IMG/VR virus record: IMGVR_UViG_3300044638_007710
Location: 1-24,543 of that record
Strand: one strand, 5' to 3'
Origin: a virus
Length of the DNA: 24,543 nt
The notes below the pieces were generated by a model that was not told where the DNA came from, did not search any database, and saw only the letters and a list, made by a program, of their open reading frames with translations. The translations under genes and the position numbers were made by a program. Positions 4,979 to 24,080 of the stretch are shown here, in pieces. Each line of letters begins with the position of its first letter. Position 1 is the stretch's first letter.

Positions 4979-5323
4979 ATGGAAAAATTTAGACACGAAG
5001 AAAAATTTTTAGAGAACTTATCCAAAATGAGTGACCAGTTCTTTTCCATGATTTTAATCACAGATGGACATGGGTTATCTCCTAATGAGTTAAAAACAAG
5101 GACAAAGTTTACAGAGTTTTTTTCTAATTCAGTTCAATATTCTGATGGGACAACTCATTTAGATTCAATATATGTTTTCGATGAAGACATTTACATATAT
5201 TTATCAAAGAGTGATCCTACAATCTCTTCTTTTTCTTGTAAAATTTATTATCCTATAAGAAAGAAAAAAGATGTAGAGTTCTTTATATTAAACTTAAAAA
5301 AAATGAAAAAAAATGGAAATTAG
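4979..5323 (+). CDS. Hypothetical protein, 114 aa
   Basis: This protein has an N-terminal helical part (MEKFRHEEKFLENLSKMSDQ), a central segment with HGLSPNELKTRTKF, and beta-like stretches (IYVFDEDIYIYLSK), and ends in a Lys-rich tail. No family is recognised. It overlaps the thioredoxin gene by 11 bases, which places it in the redox operon with thioredoxin and glutaredoxin and suggests co-translation. The function is unknown. Confidence 0.65.
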   Translation: MEKFRHEEKFLENLSKMSDQFFSMILITDGHGLSPNELKTRTKFTEFFSNSVQYSDGTTHLDSIYVFDEDIYIYLSKSDPTISSFSCKIYYPIRKKKDVEFFILNLKKMKKNGN

Positions 5324-5627
5324 TAGTGTTGAATTACAACAAAAAATTAACGGAGGAGAAAAGTTGATGGTTGAATTTTGGGCTGAATGGTGTGGTCCAT
5401 GTAAAATGATGAAACCAATCTTTGAAAAAGTTGCATCTACAAATCAATCAGATGTTAAGATGTACACATTGAATATTGATAACAATCGTGAGGTTGCAAT
5501 GTCTTTAGGTATTAGAAGTATCCCTACAGTAAAAATGTTTAATGCTGGACAAGTAGTTGAAACTAAAATTGGTTTACTAAGTGAAAACCAAATAAACGAA
5601 CTAGTAACAGAATTAATCAATGGATAA
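5313..5627 (+). CDS. trx: Thioredoxin
   Basis: This is a full-length, single-domain thioredoxin (104 residues, the usual length). The active site WCGPC is at residues 26-30, preceded by VEFWAEW, and the cis-proline loop SIPTVKMF lies near residue 70. It reduces protein disulfides using electrons from thioredoxin reductase, and in phages can also support ribonucleotide reductase or act as a polymerase factor. No reductase or polymerase gene is in view, so the partner would be host-encoded or elsewhere. It overlaps the upstream gene by 11 bases and the downstream glutaredoxin by 8. There is no signal peptide, so it is cytoplasmic. Confidence 0.93.
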   Translation: MEISSVELQQKINGGEKLMVEFWAEWCGPCKMMKPIFEKVASTNQSDVKMYTLNIDNNREVAMSLGIRSIPTVKMFNAGQVVETKIGLLSENQINELVTELING

Positions 5628-5907
5628 GTTAGCAGTACTTTTTACAATGAAAAGCTGTCCTCATTGCCAAGACTTTAAAAAAATGTTAGATGAGGCAGAA
5701 TTAGATTATCTCGAAAGAGACATCTATGAATATGAAGAAGAATATGAAATGTTTATCGAAGCAACAGGAAACGAGTTTGTACCGGCATTCATGTTAATTG
5801 AGAATCCTGAAAGTGAAGAACCAATTACAGGTTTGTATGCTCCTGATCGAGACTTTGAAGATATGGATCAAGGATTAAATATAATCAAAGAGTTCTACGA
5901 AAGATAA
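5620..5907 (+). CDS. Glutaredoxin-like protein
   Basis: This 95-residue protein has a thioredoxin fold of glutaredoxin type. LFTMKSCPHCQDFKKML places a CPHC active site at residues 13-16, and FVPAFMLIE supplies the cis-proline segment. The region ELDYLERDIYEYEEEYEMF fits the glutaredoxin helix-2/strand-2 pattern. CPHC rather than CPYC is unusual and closer to some DsbA/NrdH-like redoxins. The last gene of the redox operon, it overlaps thioredoxin by 8 bases and is followed by a strong terminator. Likely partners are ribonucleotide reductase or other phage thiol enzymes; that is inference. Confidence 0.85.
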   Translation: MDKLAVLFTMKSCPHCQDFKKMLDEAELDYLERDIYEYEEEYEMFIEATGNEFVPAFMLIENPESEEPITGLYAPDRDFEDMDQGLNIIKEFYER

Positions 5908-11063: not shown

Positions 11064-11246
11064 ATGGGATTCAATAAAAGACTTTTAAAAAAAGAAAATA
11101 TTTTGAATAACCTTGAAAATCTTATGAAATATTTGTCAGCCGATGCAATTATTTGTACCGATGAGTTTTCTTGTAAAGTTTATCGGATGTATGAAGAAGG
11201 TTTTACAAAAGAAGAAATAATAAATGTCATAAATAAAATAAAATGA
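11064..11246 (+). CDS. Small hypothetical protein, 60 aa
   Basis: A basic N-terminus (MGFNKRLLKKENILNNLENL) is followed by a helical C-terminal part, YRMYEEGFTKEEIINVINKI, which resembles small helix-turn-helix or ubiquitin-associated-like modules that recognise a short helix pair; this is only a resemblance. The gene overlaps the glutamine synthetase start (ATGA at 11243-11246), which implies translational coupling to that enzyme. Confidence 0.65.
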   Translation: MGFNKRLLKKENILNNLENLMKYLSADAIICTDEFSCKVYRMYEEGFTKEEIINVINKIK

Positions 11247-12361
11247 AAATTCGTTTGGAATATGTGTGGTTAGATGGTTATAAACCTGAACCCAACCTAA
11301 GAAGTAAAGTCAAGATTGTTGAATACGAATCCGTCAAGAACGCTTTCCTTAATGGAAATTTTCCAATTTGGAATTTCGATGGATCATCAACGAATCAAGC
11401 ACAAACAGGAAACTCCGATTGTTTATTAAAACCTGTTAGACATTATGTTCAAGACATGCAATCAACAATCTATATTTTATGTGAAGTATTAAACCCAAAT
11501 GGAACACCCCATGAATCGAATAAAAGATCTAGTATTGGTGAAGGATTTGAAGATCTTTGGTTTGGTTTTGAACAAGAATATTTTATTCGAGAAGAAGTTA
11601 ATGGAAACATTTTGGGTCACAAGAGAAACATCCTTAAAGGACAAGGTGAGTACTACTGTGGTGTAGGTCATAATGTTGTTGGTCGTCCATTTGTTGAGGA
11701 ACATTTGAATATGTGTTTAAACTATGGTATTGATATTACAGGAACAAATGCTGAGGTTGCTTTAGGTCAGTGGGAATACCAAGTTTTTTCAAAAGGAAAA
11801 TTACAAGGCGGAGATGATCTTTGGATGACTAGATATTTCCTATTTAAGATTGCTGAGAAGTACGGTTATCACATTGAACTTCACCCAAAACCAATCACAC
11901 ACGGAGAGTGGAATGGATCAGGACTTCACACAAACTTCTCAACAGACATGATGAGATTTGATGGTAACGAAGAATACTTCATGTCACTATTTAACGCATT
12001 TGAATCAAGACACGAAGATCATATCAAAGCTTACGGATCAAACAATAACCTTCGTTTGACTGGTGAATATGAGACACAGGCAATTGATAAATTTAGTTGG
12101 GGTGTATCTGATCGTGGAGCATCAATTAGAGTTCCACAGGACACAGCAAAAGAATGGAAAGGATATGTTGAAGATAGAAGACCAGGATCAAATGCAGATC
12201 CATATAAAATTGTTCGTGAGATCGTTAATTCATTATATGTAGCTCAACTACTTTATGATACAAAAACTATGATCAATAAAGATGTTAATTTAAACGGTCT
12301 TAGTGAAAAGTATGGAACTATGTCCAATGAAGAATTATTAAAAGAATATAGAGAAGAGTAA
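11243..12361 (+). CDS. glnII: Glutamine synthetase, type II (eukaryote-like)
   Basis: This complete 372-residue enzyme makes glutamine from glutamate, ammonia and ATP. The class II signatures are present in order: FPIWNFDGSSTNQA (40-53); FGFEQEYF (108-114) with metal-binding glutamates; GQGEYYCGVGHN (133-144); GTNAEVALGQWEYQ (167-180); HPKPITHGEWNGSGLHTNFS (214-233); RLTGEYET (271-278); and WGVSDRGASIRV then YVEDRRPGSNADPY (286-321). No key residue looks missing, so it should be active. GSII is not adenylylated, so host GSI control may not apply. It lies in a phage-like run, overlapping the small gene before it by four bases and DUF3310 by one. Its codon use is not obviously foreign to neighbouring genes. 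Bacteroidetes hosts often use GSIII; carriage here is notable. Confidence 0.93.
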   Translation: MKIRLEYVWLDGYKPEPNLRSKVKIVEYESVKNAFLNGNFPIWNFDGSSTNQAQTGNSDCLLKPVRHYVQDMQSTIYILCEVLNPNGTPHESNKRSSIGEGFEDLWFGFEQEYFIREEVNGNILGHKRNILKGQGEYYCGVGHNVVGRPFVEEHLNMCLNYGIDITGTNAEVALGQWEYQVFSKGKLQGGDDLWMTRYFLFKIAEKYGYHIELHPKPITHGEWNGSGLHTNFSTDMMRFDGNEEYFMSLFNAFESRHEDHIKAYGSNNNLRLTGEYETQAIDKFSWGVSDRGASIRVPQDTAKEWKGYVEDRRPGSNADPYKIVREIVNSLYVAQLLYDTKTMINKDVNLNGLSEKYGTMSNEELLKEYREE

Positions 12362-12630
12362 TGGATAAACAATGTGTATGTGGTGGTACTGGACTTTGTC
12401 AATGTCCTTCACCACAAAAAGAACAAGTAAATCATCCTCAACATTACGGAGGAGAAAATAACCCTTACGAAGCAATCAAAGTAATTGATGCTTGGGATTT
12501 AGGGTTTAGTTTAGGAAATACAGTAAAATATATAAGTCGTGCAGGAAAGAAAGGAAAAGATAAAGAACTCGAGGATCTCAGAAAAGCGTTATGGTACCTC
12601 CAACACCATATCCAAACACTCGAAAAATAA
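12361..12630 (+). CDS. DUF3310 phage protein with N-terminal Cys cluster
   Basis: This 89-residue protein carries the DUF3310 domain from about residue 22: VNHPQHYGGENNPYEAIKVI, then GFSLGNTVKYISRAGKKGKD, then LEDLRKALWYLQHHI. These are the family's conserved HPxHY, N-YI-R and KA-WYL elements. The family is common in tailed phages and is thought to relate to nucleotide metabolism, though the function is not settled. An N-terminal extension CVCGGTGLCQCP (residues 5-16) could bind metal. It starts on the last base of the glutamine synthetase stop. The frame after its stop continues as the membrane protein described next, one base shifted. Confidence 0.88.
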   Translation: MDKQCVCGGTGLCQCPSPQKEQVNHPQHYGGENNPYEAIKVIDAWDLGFSLGNTVKYISRAGKKGKDKELEDLRKALWYLQHHIQTLEK

Positions 12631-12712
12631 AACTGGGTTTGATAAAGAGATTAATGTTTGGGATGCTCTTACAACACCAAACGAATTATTAAGAGAAACT
12701 CTCATCAACTTT

Positions 12713-12934
12713 ATGTGGGGTTTTCTCGGGAACTCTATTGTAGTATTTGCGGCAAAAGAACTGGACTTTTTAGTATTGATTAATTATGTTGTTTATTACA
12801 TTCTGATTTCTTATATTGTGAATAGAAAGAAATATGAAACAATGTTAGGCAAGTTTATTATTCTTCCCGGATCCGCAGCTGCAGGGGCTTTTACAGGATA
12901 TAAATTAGCACAAATGATCTCAAATTTTATTTAA
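12713..12934 (+). CDS. Small membrane protein with uncertain start
   Basis: From the first in-frame ATG (12713) the product has 73 residues with two or three hydrophobic segments: WGFLGNSIVVFAAKEL, FLVLINYVVYYILISYIV and the C-terminal GSAAAGAFTGYKLAQM, which suggest an inner-membrane protein. The frame is open further upstream with credible protein sequence (KTGFDKEINVWDALTTPNELL), but no ATG occurs there. The only other start is a GTG at 12539 inside DUF3310. A rare start at ATT 12650, or a +1 frameshift from DUF3310, would also explain this. Phage membrane proteins of this size include holins, but no lysis-gene context is present. Confidence 0.55.
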   Translation: MWGFLGNSIVVFAAKELDFLVLINYVVYYILISYIVNRKKYETMLGKFIILPGSAAAGAFTGYKLAQMISNFI

Positions 12935-12936
12935 AA

Positions 12937-13086
12937 ATGGGAAAAGATTGGAATCTAAATGACTTTCAAGGAAGGTCAAAAAATCATGTAGAAAGAAACT
13001 ACAGAATTTTAGCATTTTCAATTATTGTCTTCTGGTTGTATTTGATGGGAATTTTAGTTTATAAATTTATTAATTTTTTATTTTAA
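12937..13086 (+). CDS. Single-span membrane protein, 49 aa
   Basis: A frame of 49 codons starts at an ATG two bases after the stop of the previous membrane protein and ends TAA at 13084-13086. The N-terminal 23 residues are polar and basic, followed by one clear membrane helix (about residues 24-42, ILAFSIIVFWLYLMGILVY). Positive residues before the helix predict an N-in orientation. The tight spacing to its neighbours supports its being real. A pair of small membrane proteins in tandem could be a holin-type unit; that is speculation. Confidence 0.6.
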   Translation: MGKDWNLNDFQGRSKNHVERNYRILAFSIIVFWLYLMGILVYKFINFLF

Positions 13087-13094
13087 GATATAAC

Positions 13095-13625
13095 ATGAAA
13101 TACTACAAGTTTACATTAGGACACAGAGGGGCTGAAGTCTACCCATTTAAGTTAAACACAGAACAATACAACACCTTCCAAGACAAAAGAGTTGAGTTCG
13201 ATGAAATGGATTACGATCAGATTTGTGAAGTTTTGGGTGTTGAAAGTTATTTTGACTCTGAATTAGACACCCTAATAGGTCCATATCCTGAAACTTTCTA
13301 TTTAAAAGTAGAGGATGAAAACGGAAATTTAGTCTATGAAACGGAAGAACTTAATCGTGAAAAATGTGATTATGAAGAAAAGTATTGTAGTCAGGATGCT
13401 TATCTTATTATAGAAGATCATTGTAAAGGTAATATATTAGTATATGACATACCATTAGAAGAAGAATTTGATGTAGAAAAAATCAGATTTGAAGTTAAAG
13501 ATGTTGGTTGTAGGGTTGAAATTGTCACAGATATGTTCTATGATGATAAAAGATATGAAATTTATAAATCATTTGGGGATATGACATCAAAAGGTTATTA
13601 TTACCACATAACAGCAGGAATTTAA
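13095..13625 (+). CDS. Hypothetical acidic protein, 176 aa
   Basis: This protein has mixed strand and helix character (MKYYKFTLGHRGAEVYPFKL at the N-terminus, GYYYHITAGI at the C-terminus), no membrane segment and no recognised family. It has five cysteines in the middle part. It begins eight bases after the small membrane gene and ends three bases before the methyltransferase start, so it belongs to one operon with both. The function is unknown. Confidence 0.68.
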   Translation: MKYYKFTLGHRGAEVYPFKLNTEQYNTFQDKRVEFDEMDYDQICEVLGVESYFDSELDTLIGPYPETFYLKVEDENGNLVYETEELNREKCDYEEKYCSQDAYLIIEDHCKGNILVYDIPLEEEFDVEKIRFEVKDVGCRVEIVTDMFYDDKRYEIYKSFGDMTSKGYYYHITAGI

Positions 13626-13628
13626 AAA

Positions 13629-14480
13629 ATGATAGAAACAGGAAAAATTATTAACGGAGATTGTATTGAGGTGATGAAGACATTACCTGAGGGTAGTGTT
13701 GATTTGGTAGTCACTAGTCCACCTTATGGTGTTGGAATCGACTATGATGTTCACGAAGATGATGTGGAATTTGAAGATTATGTTGAATTCGCAAAGTCTT
13801 GGTTGACAGAAGTTTATAGATTACTAAAAGATGATGGTCGTATAGCCCTTAACATTCCTTATGAAATTAACAGACAGAAAAAAGGTGGTCGTATCTTTTT
13901 TGTCTCAGAGATGTGGCAGATCATGAAAGAAATTGGTTTTGGATTCTTCGGAATTGTTGATTTGGAAGAACAATCACCACACAGAAGTAAGACAACGGCT
14001 TGGGGATCTTGGATGAGTCCAAGTTCACCTTATATCTATAACCCAAAAGAATGTGTTATATTGGCATACAAAAAACAACACATCAAAAAAATCAAAGGTC
14101 AACCACAATGGACTGGCGAATTAACTGAAATTGAGAATGAAGATGGTTCTAAAAGGAACAAAATGGTCTATGACGAGAATGATAAGAAAGAATTTATGGA
14201 ACTTGTGTTTGGTCAGTGGAATTACTTTGCAGATACTAAATCACTTACCAAGGCAACTTTCTCGATGGATATACCAACCAAAGCGATCAAGATATTGTCC
14301 TACAAGAATGATGTAGTCTTAGATCCGTTCTGTGGTAGTGGTACATCTGTAGTTGCCGCTGAGATATTAGATCGTAGATGGTTAGGAATTGAATTAAGTC
14401 CAAACTATTGTGATGTTGCAAGAGGCCGAGTTCAAACTTTTGTAGATGAAAAAAAACAAGTTAAAATAGAATTGGTTTAA
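13629..14480 (+). CDS. Orphan beta-class DNA methyltransferase (N6A or N4C)
   Basis: This 283-residue enzyme transfers a methyl group from S-adenosylmethionine to an exocyclic amino group of DNA. Motif IV VVTSPPYG (residues 27-34) precedes motif I DPFCGSGT (232-239), the order that defines the beta class. SPPY favours N4-cytosine, but N6-adenine enzymes of this class share it. LDRRWLGIELSPNYCDVARGRV near the C-terminus is the usual motif II/III region. The middle region (about 115-220) is the target-recognition part. No restriction endonuclease is adjacent, so it is an orphan, typical of phage self-protection against host restriction. It ends convergently with DUF192, overlapping by four bases. 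Confidence 0.9.
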   Translation: MIETGKIINGDCIEVMKTLPEGSVDLVVTSPPYGVGIDYDVHEDDVEFEDYVEFAKSWLTEVYRLLKDDGRIALNIPYEINRQKKGGRIFFVSEMWQIMKEIGFGFFGIVDLEEQSPHRSKTTAWGSWMSPSSPYIYNPKECVILAYKKQHIKKIKGQPQWTGELTEIENEDGSKRNKMVYDENDKKEFMELVFGQWNYFADTKSLTKATFSMDIPTKAIKILSYKNDVVLDPFCGSGTSVVAAEILDRRWLGIELSPNYCDVARGRVQTFVDEKKQVKIELV

Positions 14481-19847: not shown

Positions 19848-21098
19848 ATGAAAAATATTATTATCACCGAAAGTCAATTAAGACTAATAACTGAAGCTTT
19901 AGGGGTTCCTGATAACATTTTAGAAGCTGCTGATACGCTATACGATATCGTTGAAAAAGACATCAAATCAATAGATAGTATTAAAGATGAATATGAATTT
20001 GATGGTGATATCGAATTAGAATTAGGTGATAAGAAAAAGATCAAAATTGATTCATATAACCTTGAAGTTAATATAGAAACTGTTGATGGTGAAGAAGGTG
20101 TATTAGACATTATCTCGATGGGGATGGCGGGAGCCTTTGGGTTCAATAGGGATGTGTATATGAAAGAAACTCAACCATCAACAACTTTAGATTTAACAAT
20201 TACTTTTGCTGTTGGTGACAATTGGAAACCAGAAGAACTTATCGCTAAAATGGAAGAGGAAAGAGATGAAAATGTATCGGCTTTGGCTCATGAGATAAAA
20301 CATAAATACGATAAACAAGCTAAAGAATATAGTCGTATGGGTCCTGATGCTGTTTATCAGGCAACACAACAAAAAGGTAATTTTGCAATACCGGCAATCG
20401 ATAGAGTTTTTTATAGATTTATGTATTACATTCATGCAATTGAAAACCTTGTTAGACCAACAGAGGTTGCATACTCAATGAAAAGAAAGAACATTACAAA
20501 ATCACAGTTCAAAGACTTTTTAGAGGACAATAGAGTTTATAAAGAATTATTAAGAATAAAAAACTACACTTTTGATAATTTTATACAAGATTTAAAACAA
20601 CAAGAAGATAGATTGGATGCTCTTTTAGAACACATCGGTGAAGACCCATCTGACATGTCTATTGATGAAAAAATAAACAAAGTATTAGAAGTTGTTTATA
20701 TTGATTTAGTAAATAACAGAATGGATTTTTTTATGCAAATGACTCAAGGTCCTATGGATGACTTTTTAACATTTGGAGCACAACTTGGAATGATACCACC
20801 AGGATTTGAAGAAAAAATGAAACAACTTCAAAAAACAAATGAGATTAGACAAAAGTTTTTATCACGAACTATGAGATATGAAAAAAATCCAACTAAGTTT
20901 TTTGAAGATGAATTTGAAGAATTTAATTATGTTGCAAACAAAATGTTAAAGAAAATTTCTAAACTTTACGCAATGGCAAAAGACGACGAACAAGTTAGTG
21001 AATCGATTCTAAATTGGGATCTTCACCAACAAATTATGGAAAAAAAATATGGAAAAAGAAAAATCGAAACAAAATACAAAAATTGGAATCTTAAATAA
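19848..21098 (+). CDS. Leader protein with zincin-type HEIKH motif
   Basis: This 416-residue protein begins MKNIIITESQLRLITEALGV, a clear member of the leader family with I-T-E at 6-8 and again at 14-16. SALAHEIKHKYDK (144-156) contains HExxH (H148, E149, H152), the zinc site of metallopeptidases, and RPTEVAYSM (E206) is a plausible third ligand. In zincins of this kind a glutamate follows 25-60 residues later in 'P.E..A'; here the gap is 54. The remainder is helical and charged. The pattern suggests a virion-associated protease, possibly one that processes other packaged proteins or the host wall. An inactive or structural relative is not excluded. It is preceded by an NATATTTATN motif. Confidence 0.7.
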   Translation: MKNIIITESQLRLITEALGVPDNILEAADTLYDIVEKDIKSIDSIKDEYEFDGDIELELGDKKKIKIDSYNLEVNIETVDGEEGVLDIISMGMAGAFGFNRDVYMKETQPSTTLDLTITFAVGDNWKPEELIAKMEEERDENVSALAHEIKHKYDKQAKEYSRMGPDAVYQATQQKGNFAIPAIDRVFYRFMYYIHAIENLVRPTEVAYSMKRKNITKSQFKDFLEDNRVYKELLRIKNYTFDNFIQDLKQQEDRLDALLEHIGEDPSDMSIDEKINKVLEVVYIDLVNNRMDFFMQMTQGPMDDFLTFGAQLGMIPPGFEEKMKQLQKTNEIRQKFLSRTMRYEKNPTKFFEDEFEEFNYVANKMLKKISKLYAMAKDDEQVSESILNWDLHQQIMEKKYGKRKIETKYKNWNLK

Positions 21099-21456
21099 AT
21101 TATTGGTATTCTTACCATTTCTGACATTATCTTTTATTTTAAAATTACCCGAATATAAAGGAATTGCTACTTACTACGGACAGCATTGGACAGGTAGGAT
21201 GACAGCTTCAGGGGAAAGATTTCATGCCGATAGTCTAACCGCAGCTCACAAACACTTCAAGTTCGGAACAATACTAAAAGTAACTAATCATCATAACGAC
21301 TCAGTTTGTTATGTTAAAGTTAATGATCGACTTCCAAAAAGTTCTAAATTCATAATTGATCTTAGTTATGGTACTGCAAAACAACTTAATTTTTTAAAAA
21401 GAGGTGTGATAAATGTCACACTAACACCGGTTGATACTGTTGAAATTAGAAAATAA
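21049..21456 (+). CDS. RlpA-like double-psi beta-barrel protein
   Basis: This 135-residue protein starts with a basic tail and one hydrophobic helix (about 15-33), likely a membrane anchor or uncleaved signal. The rest (about 38-129) is an RlpA-type double-psi beta-barrel: GIATYYGQHWTGRMTASGE, then LTAAHKHFKFGT, then VKVNDRLPKSSKFIIDLSYG. The conserved catalytic-type His (in AAHKH) and Asp (in VNDR) are present. RlpA proteins of some bacteria cut glycan strands lacking stem peptides, so a wall-hydrolase or lysis role is possible. The start overlaps the previous gene by 50 bases; no other in-frame start exists before the hydrophobic helix. Confidence 0.82.
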   Translation: MEKEKSKQNTKIGILNKLLVFLPFLTLSFILKLPEYKGIATYYGQHWTGRMTASGERFHADSLTAAHKHFKFGTILKVTNHHNDSVCYVKVNDRLPKSSKFIIDLSYGTAKQLNFLKRGVINVTLTPVDTVEIRK

Positions 21457-21620
21457 TAAATCAAAATGGGAGTTTGCTCAATACACCATAATTGATATAC
21501 AACAATCAAATAGTTCTTCGTATTTATTATAGTACCTCGACCTGCCCATGGTATATGGGGGTTTCCAATTAGGATTCTTCAAGTGAGTATAATAATTAAT
21601 GTGTTTTAATTTTATACGCA
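21457..21620 (+). other. Intergenic spacer upstream of T9SS-sorted gene
   Basis: This 164-base gap is the longest noncoding stretch in the window. It holds a TATTTATTA string near 21520, a small hairpin CCCAT/ATGGG (21545-21559) and a TATAAT-like string near 21589. None is convincing alone, and I see no small gene or tRNA. It suggests the gene at 21621 has a long 5' leader, unlike its neighbours. Confidence 0.4.
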
Positions 21621-24080
21621 ATGAAGAATTTATTATTATCGATTTTTGTTTTTTTTACAAGTTTCGTCACTTTATCACAATCTTGCACTCATTCAATCTA
21701 TTTAACCGATACTTGGGGTGATGGATGGAATGGAGGAAGAGTTTCCGTTAGTGTAAATGGAATAACTGTATTAACTAATCTTGGATCAACCTTCACAAGT
21801 GGTTATGGACCATTAATTTTTAATTTCACAGCATCATCAGGTCAAATCATTAGAGTATGGAGAACAACATCAGGAACTTTTCCTTCAGAAATGAGAGTTC
21901 AAATAAGAAATAACACAGGAACAATTCTACTAAATACAATACAACCCGTAACAGGAACCGCAACTACAGGTGGTTATACTTGTGTTGCTTCGTGTTCTGG
22001 TGGTGGAGGAGGAGGTTGTGTTAATTTATACGCCTATGGATCATTAACTGCACCATCTATACCTGGTGTTCATACAATTAGCACTTGCACTTATCAAGAA
22101 GAATATAATACCATTTTTAATATTGTATCGGGAGGACAATATAGATCTACATATAATTTAGGTGGCTACATTACTGTAAGACATTCATCCTATAACGGAA
22201 CTGTGGTTGCTACTGGTTTTTCACCTTTAACATGGACCGCACCAATATCAGGGACTTATTATATTCATTACAATACTAATTCATCATGTGGGACTGCAAT
22301 TAATTGTGGAACGACAACGATTGAATGTCTTTCTTGTTCAGCCCCTGCTGCACCTGTAAATGATTTAGTTTGTAACGCAACTTCTATCTCATGTGGTCAA
22401 ATTGTATCCGGAACTACGGTCAATTCCACTAATAGCGGAAATGGAGAAAATGGTTTTTGTAATGTCTCACAAACCCAACCTGGAGTTTGGTATATGGTTC
22501 CTGGAAATGGACAGATTATGACGGCTTATCTTTGTAATACTGCTTGGGATAGTAAGATCTCGGTTTTTAGTGGTCCTAATTGTTCATCTTTAACTTGCGT
22601 TGGTGGTAACGATGATTATGGGCCAACATGTGCCACATCATCAGCATCTTATCAATGGACATCAACCGTTGGACTAAACTACTATATATTAGTTCATGGA
22701 TACAACTCAAGTAGCGCCTTTCAGGTTGGATTGATTTGTTCAACACCACCACCCCCTAACCCAACTTCAATATCTGCAACTTCAAATATTGTTTGTAACG
22801 GAACATCAACAACATTAACCGCTAATGGTGGAGTGGGAACGGTTTATTGGTATATTAATGGATGTGGGGTAACTCAAATCGGAGTTGGAAATTCCATCAC
22901 GGTTTCACCTACTACCACCACTACTTATTTTGCTAGAAATTATAATTCAAGTTTATTTAGTTCAGGATGTGCATCAACAACCATAACGGTGAATCCAACA
23001 CCAACAGTTTCAGTAAGTTCAGTAACAAACACAATTTGTTCGGGATCTAACACACAATTGATTTCATCAGTGGGGAATACTGGAGGATCACCAGTAACAT
23101 ACTCATGGTCTCCATCTACAGGACTAACAAATCCAAATGCACCAAGTCCTTTTGCATCACCAACAAGTAATCAATCATATACACTAACGGTGTCATCAAA
23201 TGGGTGTTCGAATGCGACATCAACAACAATAACCGTAAACCCTTCAGTTGGATTTGTTTCCACAGTGTCGGGGAACAACACAATTATTGCGGGAACTCAA
23301 GAAACATATTCTATTACACCTGTCCCAAACGCAACATATCAATGGGCATACACAGAGTCAGTTACCGCACCTTTATGGAATAACATACCAAACTCTAATA
23401 CACCATCAATATCTTTTTATTGGCCTCAAACAACAACCAATGGATCTGTTAGAGTCACAGTTTCAAATTCATCAAACTGTGGAACTCAAGTTAGATTTTT
23501 TAATATAATAACAAATGGAGCATTACCTGTTGAACTATTATCATTTGACGGAACTTGTAATGATAATCTTATCACATTAAATTGGAGAACTGCTACTGAA
23601 CATAACACATCTCACTTTGATGTTCTTAAATCAAGAGATGGTGAAAATTGGTCTAAATTAACAACCTTGAATTCTGCTGGCAACTCAACTCAAGAATTAA
23701 GTTATACAACAAAAGATGAAAATGCAATTGACGGAAACAATTATTATAAATTAATACAATATGATATTGATGGTGTTAGCGATGAATACGGACCGATCAA
23801 TGTTATTTGTAATGGAAATTCAAAAGGATATTTTTCAACATTTCCAAATCCAAGTTCAGGATCTTTTCAAGTTGTATTGAACAATAAAAACATGATCGGA
23901 AATGGTAAAATTGAAATTCAAGATTCAAAAGGCTCAATTGTTTTAGAAAAAGAAATTGAAATAAAAGGGGGTATTAATTTATATAATCTTGATATGTTAA
24001 ATATTGTGTCAGGAGTGTATTATATAAAAGTAACATCAAACGAGTTTTCAACTAACACCTTAAAACAAATAATCAAGTAA
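21621..24080 (+). CDS. Secreted T9SS-sorted multidomain surface protein
   Basis: This 819-residue protein has a signal peptide (residues 1 to about 20). The first domain (about 21-115) carries YLTDTWGDGWNGGRVSVSVN, a Bacteroidetes extracellular beta-domain pattern. A Gly stretch (SGGGGGGC) follows, then Cys-rich beta domains and Thr/Ser-rich Ig-like or PKD-like units (about 380-630; for example TVNPTPTVSVSSVTN). At about 634-730 sits the LPVELLSFDG...LNWRTATEHNTSHFDV...DGENW module typical of T9SS cargo. Residues about 736-819 match a type A T9SS sorting domain (FPNPSSGSFQV, then SGVYYIKVTS). It should be exported by host Sec and then T9SS. No enzyme motif is visible, so adhesion or surface masking is likely. 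The gene looks like a typical flavobacterial protein in a phage-like setting. Confidence 0.85.
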   Translation: MKNLLLSIFVFFTSFVTLSQSCTHSIYLTDTWGDGWNGGRVSVSVNGITVLTNLGSTFTSGYGPLIFNFTASSGQIIRVWRTTSGTFPSEMRVQIRNNTGTILLNTIQPVTGTATTGGYTCVASCSGGGGGGCVNLYAYGSLTAPSIPGVHTISTCTYQEEYNTIFNIVSGGQYRSTYNLGGYITVRHSSYNGTVVATGFSPLTWTAPISGTYYIHYNTNSSCGTAINCGTTTIECLSCSAPAAPVNDLVCNATSISCGQIVSGTTVNSTNSGNGENGFCNVSQTQPGVWYMVPGNGQIMTAYLCNTAWDSKISVFSGPNCSSLTCVGGNDDYGPTCATSSASYQWTSTVGLNYYILVHGYNSSSAFQVGLICSTPPPPNPTSISATSNIVCNGTSTTLTANGGVGTVYWYINGCGVTQIGVGNSITVSPTTTTTYFARNYNSSLFSSGCASTTITVNPTPTVSVSSVTNTICSGSNTQLISSVGNTGGSPVTYSWSPSTGLTNPNAPSPFASPTSNQSYTLTVSSNGCSNATSTTITVNPSVGFVSTVSGNNTIIAGTQETYSITPVPNATYQWAYTESVTAPLWNNIPNSNTPSISFYWPQTTTNGSVRVTVSNSSNCGTQVRFFNIITNGALPVELLSFDGTCNDNLITLNWRTATEHNTSHFDVLKSRDGENWSKLTTLNSAGNSTQELSYTTKDENAIDGNNYYKLIQYDIDGVSDEYGPINVICNGNSKGYFSTFPNPSSGSFQVVLNNKNMIGNGKIEIQDSKGSIVLEKEIEIKGGINLYNLDMLNIVSGVYYIKVTSNEFSTNTLKQIIK

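Follow-up and report, generated by a model that had tools for sequence, protein, structure and literature searches.

A candidate leader RNA precedes interchangeable genes for predicted type IX secretion cargo in giant phages of Bacteroidota

Why would a phage encode a protein that carries the sorting signals of a bacterial secretion system? The question is raised by one gene in a 24,543-nucleotide stretch of viral DNA (IMG/VR record IMGVR_UViG_3300044638_007710; the whole stretch is called the window here). The initial annotation had read this gene as a complete surface protein of the type IX secretion system (T9SS), with a signal peptide, extracellular modules, an LPVELLSF module and a type A sorting domain. 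The gene and the parts of its predicted product are as follows.

21621..24080, + strand: complete open reading frame, ATG to TAA, for the 819-aa predicted T9SS type A cargo
21621..21680, + strand: signal peptide, aa 1-20, MKNLLLSIFVFFTSFVTLSQ, by inspection; the N-terminus is alike in all relatives
aa 21-125: domain with DTWGDGWNG
aa 133-239 and aa 246-375: further domains
aa 379-459: Ig_7 (CHU_C-associated Ig; Pfam, E 1.5e-7)
aa 460-633: two Ig/PKD-like segments
aa 634-730: LPVELLSF/FN3-like module, with LPVELLSF itself at aa 635-642
23841..24077, + strand: Por_Secre_tail, type A T9SS sorting domain (PF18962; TIGR04183)

That description holds up. Two models place the sorting domain at the C-terminus above their cut-offs: Por_Secre_tail PF18962 from Pfam (aa 741-817, E 2.2e-7, 31.5 bits against a cut-off of 27) and TIGR04183, 'T9SS type A sorting domain', from NCBIfam (aa 741-819, 30.2 bits against 23). 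Inspection of the N-terminus places the signal peptide cut between MKNLLLSIFVFFTSFVTLSQ and the following SC, and the Bacteroidota origin of the modules was borne out. The AlphaFold model is an all-beta chain of domains, at low confidence (pLDDT 65.7), and no PADLOC defence-system model matched the protein. Because relatives are encoded at 31 viral loci and dN/dS is low, the open reading frame is not a chance one. By sequence, the 819-aa protein is a T9SS type A cargo, and its secretion is predicted.

The most informative part of the locus is the spacer in front of the gene, 21457-21620. Its length had been taken as a hint of acquisition from a host; the long spacer is real, but it does not indicate a host source, as all phage relatives share the phage-specific leader that lies within it. 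The elements upstream of the gene are the following.

21049..21456, + strand: double-psi beta-barrel (RlpA-like) envelope protein, directly upstream (PF03330, E 1.1e-15)
21521..21527, + strand: TATTTAT promoter-like box, 8 nt before the leader
21536..21587, + strand: conserved phage leader of ~52 nt, a candidate structured RNA (20-locus alignment, covariance model)
21536-21538/21585-21587, + strand: P1 of the leader
21539-21563, + strand: P2 of the leader
21564-21574, + strand: P3 of the leader
21575-21584, + strand: single-stranded linker of the leader
21574..21581, + strand: AUUCUUCA, complementary to the cargo start region 21622-21629, UGAAGAAU

We found the leader in all 20 aligned 5′ spacers, while the DNA upstream is unrelated between lineages. 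Across lineages the leader is 86-96% identical, compared to 48-65% for the 80 nt upstream and 64-82% for the first 750 nt of coding sequence. Its exact 21-nt core occurs in 61 viral contigs, and the covariance model has one strong match each in the window (82.2 bits, E 2.8e-18) and in the large contigs G001, G003, G008 and G009. The published phage LR745206.1 (634,780 bases) carries the leader too.

Nor is the spacer a host remnant, since the leader was found in none of ~93 bacterial loci fetched around the relatives, including the 61% identical locus L079, and in none of about 400 host-class genomes. In the latter, a pattern search of 399 genomes of the host order gave one match only, with 1 mismatch (L309), and the covariance model with stricter filters gave none in 395 genomes of the host class. 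The L309 match disrupts P1 and sits, in antisense orientation, within an apparent dehydroquinate synthase gene; we rejected it as a chance match. A reading of the leader as a coding stretch (MVYGGFQLGFFK followed by a stop in the window) was likewise rejected, as the spacer length shifts by single bases between relatives. Rfam 15 has no match at the leader at E up to 10, and none among four leader-bearing loci at E up to 1. The leader appears to be phage-specific and new within the sources available, and it is a candidate RNA class.

A three-way junction was predicted by RNAalifold from 25 distinct leaders. When 40 distinct leaders were aligned to the model, standard pairs filled 98.3% of the pair cells and two-sided changes occurred in 5 of 15 pairs, a count reached by 0 of 500 shuffles, although this alignment had been fitted to the structure and, because leaders and cargo are related, the shuffle tests and the Fisher test given below overstate significance. 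Covarying, conserved structure is indicated by these pair counts and more weakly by RNAalifold on the same alignment. The two-sided variants of P1 are CUC/GAG, UCC/GGA and CAC/GUG, with independent replacements by UCC/GGA in L266 and by CAC/GUG in L310 and L317; two-sided changes occur in P3 as well. Variation in loop length falls mainly in the P3 loop, which in L299 is longer by up to about 18 nt, and P2 is almost invariant, hence uninformative on pairing. On this larger alignment of 40 leaders RNAalifold keeps P2 only, and single leaders fold no better than shuffles (z from -0.45 to +1.1).

The flanks of the leader point to its place in a transcript. Of 46 distinct leaders, 36 carry TATTTAT at a distance of 6-9 nt on the 5′ side of their first CTC, and 37 carry it somewhere in the 30 nt upstream, compared to 2.4 expected from shuffles; the related 8-mers ATATTTAT and GTATTTAT are about 8-10x enriched upstream of open reading frames in G008 and G009. 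Based on the box position and this enrichment, we infer that transcription likely starts near P1. On the other side, AUUCUUCA pairs with the start region in the minimum free energy fold of 21530-21640 (-27.1 kcal/mol, z -2.3). Strong start pairing is present in about 5 of 12 cargo families. Among cargo genes with Lys at position 2, 31 of 41 use AAG there, versus 21 of 221 Lys-2 genes in four genomes (Fisher p 5e-18, for sequences that are not independent). The interlocking of P1 with the pairing of AUUCUUCA to the start is most simply modelled as a translational switch.

We consider it probable that these elements form a cassette, whereby a phage-specific cis-regulatory leader RNA precedes a swappable slot for T9SS-exported proteins. 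A phage promoter, the TATTTAT box, would start the mRNA close to the leader, and the P1/P2/P3 junction would regulate how the gene behind it is translated. The AUUCUUCA strand would in one state pair with the start region AUGAAGAAU; in the other, P1 and the junction would form and the start would be free, with P1 and the start pairing either mutually exclusive or combined in a pseudoknot. The product would begin with a Sec signal peptide and end in a C-terminal sorting tail, with an exchangeable extracellular part between them; the host's type IX system (SprA/PorV) would carry it out of the infected cell, to be displayed on, or shed from, the host surface. Its likeliest role would be to alter the surface of the infected cell, by receptor masking, adhesion or aggregation, or competition with host adhesins. 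A bolder version, which we hold only tentatively, is that a riboswitch-like leader class gates interchangeable type IX exports, as an 'export slot' common to unrelated giant Bacteroidota phages, by sensing an infection or envelope signal.

The leader could instead act as DNA, as an operator, a late-promoter extension or a recombination or packaging site that also anchors the exchange of cargo. One strong copy per genome searched, its location where similarity between unrelated phages begins, the exchange of the cargo behind it and the inverted repeat CCCAT-n5-ATGGG are all consistent with such a site. Yet RNA is favoured by the compensatory two-sided changes in P1 and P3, by length variation concentrated in the P3 loop, by a place just behind the promoter box and inside the 5′ UTR, and by complementarity to the start region, and no second leader copy flanks the cargo; we judge the DNA site unlikely.

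A regulatory leader before a swappable slot also fits what follows it. A signal-peptide-like open reading frame stands behind the leader in 45 of 45 readable copies, starting 69-104 nt past the model start. Complete cargoes end in a type A domain in 14 of 31 cases, in a second tail in 15 and in neither in 2; L321 is a complete cargo without a recognised sorting tail. The cargoes of L253/L304, L266, L272 and L303 have just the C-terminal module in common with the window protein, to which their N-terminal parts show no relationship. Further different cargoes follow the leader in L313, L315, L317, L321, L323 and LR745206.1, and in L170 leader and cargo come directly after a type B gene. In LR745206.1 (L324:4070-4420, at about 397.4 kb) the cargo is a 117-aa protein with a signal peptide and a sorting-domain-like region that matches Por_Secre_tail weakly (25.6 bits, cut-off 27); this small protein could be a decoy for the secretion machine. 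Judged from these comparisons, the leader stays fixed while the predicted export behind it is exchanged.

The second tail is shorter, of the form ..NLxGQEVxxxxxGIxIEIYxDGTxKRxIK, and has no Pfam or NCBIfam model. Among 15 aligned members of the cargo family, 10 have the type A domain and the remainder end in this tail; examples are the phage loci L008, L016, L017 and L025 and the bacterial loci L242-L251, where it takes the form LGQEV...GIVIExYxDGT..K and comes after an LPVEL-type module. All 10 bacterial proteins inspected end in it. Of 299 genomes sampled from the order to which the L079 genome belongs, 155 encode proteins with the tail region, an upper bound for the tail because the query also covers the LPVEL module. 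The shorter tail is, on this evidence, a normal bacterial ending of putatively secreted proteins, common in the host order, and is presumably a candidate T9SS signal, possibly an undescribed one.

The same phages encode a second kind of sorted protein. A protein with a type B sorting domain (CHU_C) is present in all four large contigs (G001, G003, G008 and G009), and the G009 copy (L043:2758-5214, - strand) is above the TIGR04131 cut-off; LR745206.1 encodes one as well. A scan found relatives in 143 viral stretches, L158-L237 among them. The family has a signal peptide and, for most copies, a near-constant length of 731-819 aa; proteins of 740-819 aa are 57-71% identical between lineages, and the type B motif ends all 73 complete proteins examined (50 by search expression, 23 by reading). 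In Flavobacterium johnsoniae, PorV serves type A cargo, and type B cargo depends on PorP/SprF shuttles (PMC12618676). PorP/SprF gave no match in the phage contigs, in a search whose control was silent too, and phage type B cargo would therefore use host shuttles. Our literature search found no paper joining 'gliding motility-associated C-terminal' with bacteriophage, and the only paper found on T9SS and a jumbo phage concerns host genes.

Two further groups of genes were observed on these contigs. On the minus strand of G001 (23617-28285; L063 is G001 20001-40000) four consecutive signal-peptide genes encode a type A cargo, a glycine-rich protein, a PKD protein and a small protein with type B sorting. 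In L299, which comes from a contig of 436 kb, the sequence behind the cargo again matches the start of the second of these genes. In G009, another type A T9SS protein (287640-289550, - strand; L047) contains a cohesin domain and is encoded beside a run of signal-peptide genes at 279.9-287 kb.

The cargo family is maintained and moves. Pairwise dN/dS (NG86) between the window copy and others is 0.14-0.21, and 0.01 for the sorting domain between the window and L003; the cargo, including its signal peptide and sorting domain, is under strong purifying selection. Uneven dS along its length points to mosaic exchange within the gene, and family lengths of 622 to 1353 aa reflect modular insertion. 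The protein is common to three phage lineages at 64-70% identity, lineages that are otherwise little alike (only 7 reciprocal best hits between G001 and G003; between G003 and G009, identity is 28% for terminase TerL and 32% for capsid), and we infer that the cargo travels between phages. Its nearest bacterial relative, L079 from a Flavobacteriia MAG of Lake Pavin (61% in the best segment), nests among phage copies with support 99/95 in a tree of two domains, so that exchange with hosts has occurred. SprA (SprA_N) is present in 9 of 9 tested genomes that hold bacterial relatives of the cargo, and in none of four phage contigs tested; therefore, the secretion machine must be the host's.

That nesting, a weak PHROG tail-protein match (E 0.003) and the Ig-like modules that phage tail proteins also carry would suit a cargo that is ordinary host-derived baggage or a virion adhesin, and not a protein of the infected cell's surface. 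However, a protein built into virions in the cytoplasm would have no need of a signal peptide or a sorting domain, and here both are conserved under strong purifying selection, while the same phages encode the second, type B sorted protein; we find this reading improbable.

The remaining question is whether the window is phage DNA, as the initial annotation had assumed. For 27 window open reading frames there are homologues in the 272-kb contig G008, 52-99% identical and mostly collinear over the stretch of G008 that runs from about 35.9 back to 13.1 kb. G008 has a terminase, a T4-type Gp23 capsid protein and a weak sheath match, and its 292-kb relative G009 has a terminase, Gp23, a Gp20 portal and an S77 prohead protease (PF03237, PF07068, PF07230 and PF03420 across these T4-like, gp23-type contigs); a terminase is also present in G003. 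Based on this collinearity and these hallmark genes, the window is part of a T4-like jumbo or huge phage, predicted to infect Bacteroidota. A chimeric join near 21457-21620 is excluded, as the same genes recur on both sides in many independent contigs, and homologues of the RlpA-like neighbour stand at the same place in 12 loci. The reading as a bacterial chromosome piece misfiled as virus, which the lack of capsid, portal and terminase genes inside the window and its metabolic genes (glutamine synthetase, thioredoxin, NUDIX) might suggest, is refuted by the collinearity with G008 and the G009 hallmarks and retains hardly any probability.

Other features of these genomes may be recorded. Metabolic and host-takeover genes of the window (11243-12361, 5313-5907 and 13629-14480) encode glutamine synthetase, thioredoxin-/glutaredoxin-like proteins and a DNA methyltransferase. 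In G003, the Gp23 capsid match at 12249-13727 is broken by two TAA codons, possibly an intron or inserted element. A short hydrophobic stretch followed by (I/L)xE, such as MKIIITESQ, opens many otherwise unrelated open reading frames, in the window at 310, 654, 15674 and 19848 and also at 1841, 2415 and 8903, and such starts occur throughout G008 (12) and G009 (15). Because a T4-type S77 prohead protease is present, they look like capsid-targeting sequences of head-packaged proteins.

Phage-encoded T9SS cargo was already known from Cryophage (PMC7468147) and crAss-like phages (PMC6949934), and the novelty of the protein alone is thus lower than first claimed. Cryophage (Bellas et al. 2020, PMC7468147) likewise has type A T9SS domains on phage proteins encoded by variable genes, and its authors propose export through the host system with competition or superinfection exclusion. 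Its cargoes are an endoglucanase, a GH39 protein and a PA14 protein, whereas those described here are of Ig/adhesin type, belong to T4-like jumbo phages and are accompanied by type B cargo and an unvarying candidate leader RNA; the available text on Cryophage mentions no leader. In crAss-like phages (de Jonge et al. 2019, PMC6949934), T9SS domains adjoin, and once lie inside, a BACON open reading frame; these are other phages and domains, and the portion of that report at hand mentions neither a type B tail nor a leader.

Among bacterial systems, the type A (TIGR04183/PF18962) and type B (TIGR04131/PF13585) substrates of F. johnsoniae have the same domains and the same layout of signal peptide and C-terminal domain, and many are adhesins (PMC12618676), but the cargo here is phage-encoded. 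The best structure match is the base of the grappling-hook adhesin GhpA of Aureispira (PDB 9fly, 9flx; Foldseek E 3e-12); with a TM-score of only 0.23 to a low-confidence model, the two are alike as chains of beta-domains, and identity with GhpA is not implied. The leader resembles riboswitches and other cis-regulatory leaders of Rfam 15 in being a short, conserved, structured 5′ UTR element with a plausible start-sequestering alternative, and differs from them in matching no family and in its tie to predicted exported proteins of phages.

These comparisons extend an isolated note on T9SS-labelled phage genes to a system, with type A and type B cargo, that recurs in giant Bacteroidota phages and is under selection. 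The leader may represent a new class of RNA, for which the regulatory model can be tested, and is a one-copy marker for finding more phage cargo in metagenomes; the system as a whole gives direct access to the question of whether phages use the host's own secretion machine to remodel the surface of infected Bacteroidota cells. Compared to the known systems, the phage T9SS cargo itself is a new family and not unprecedented, and the phage leader before interchangeable exports, together with the widespread type B cargo, appears new within the sources available.
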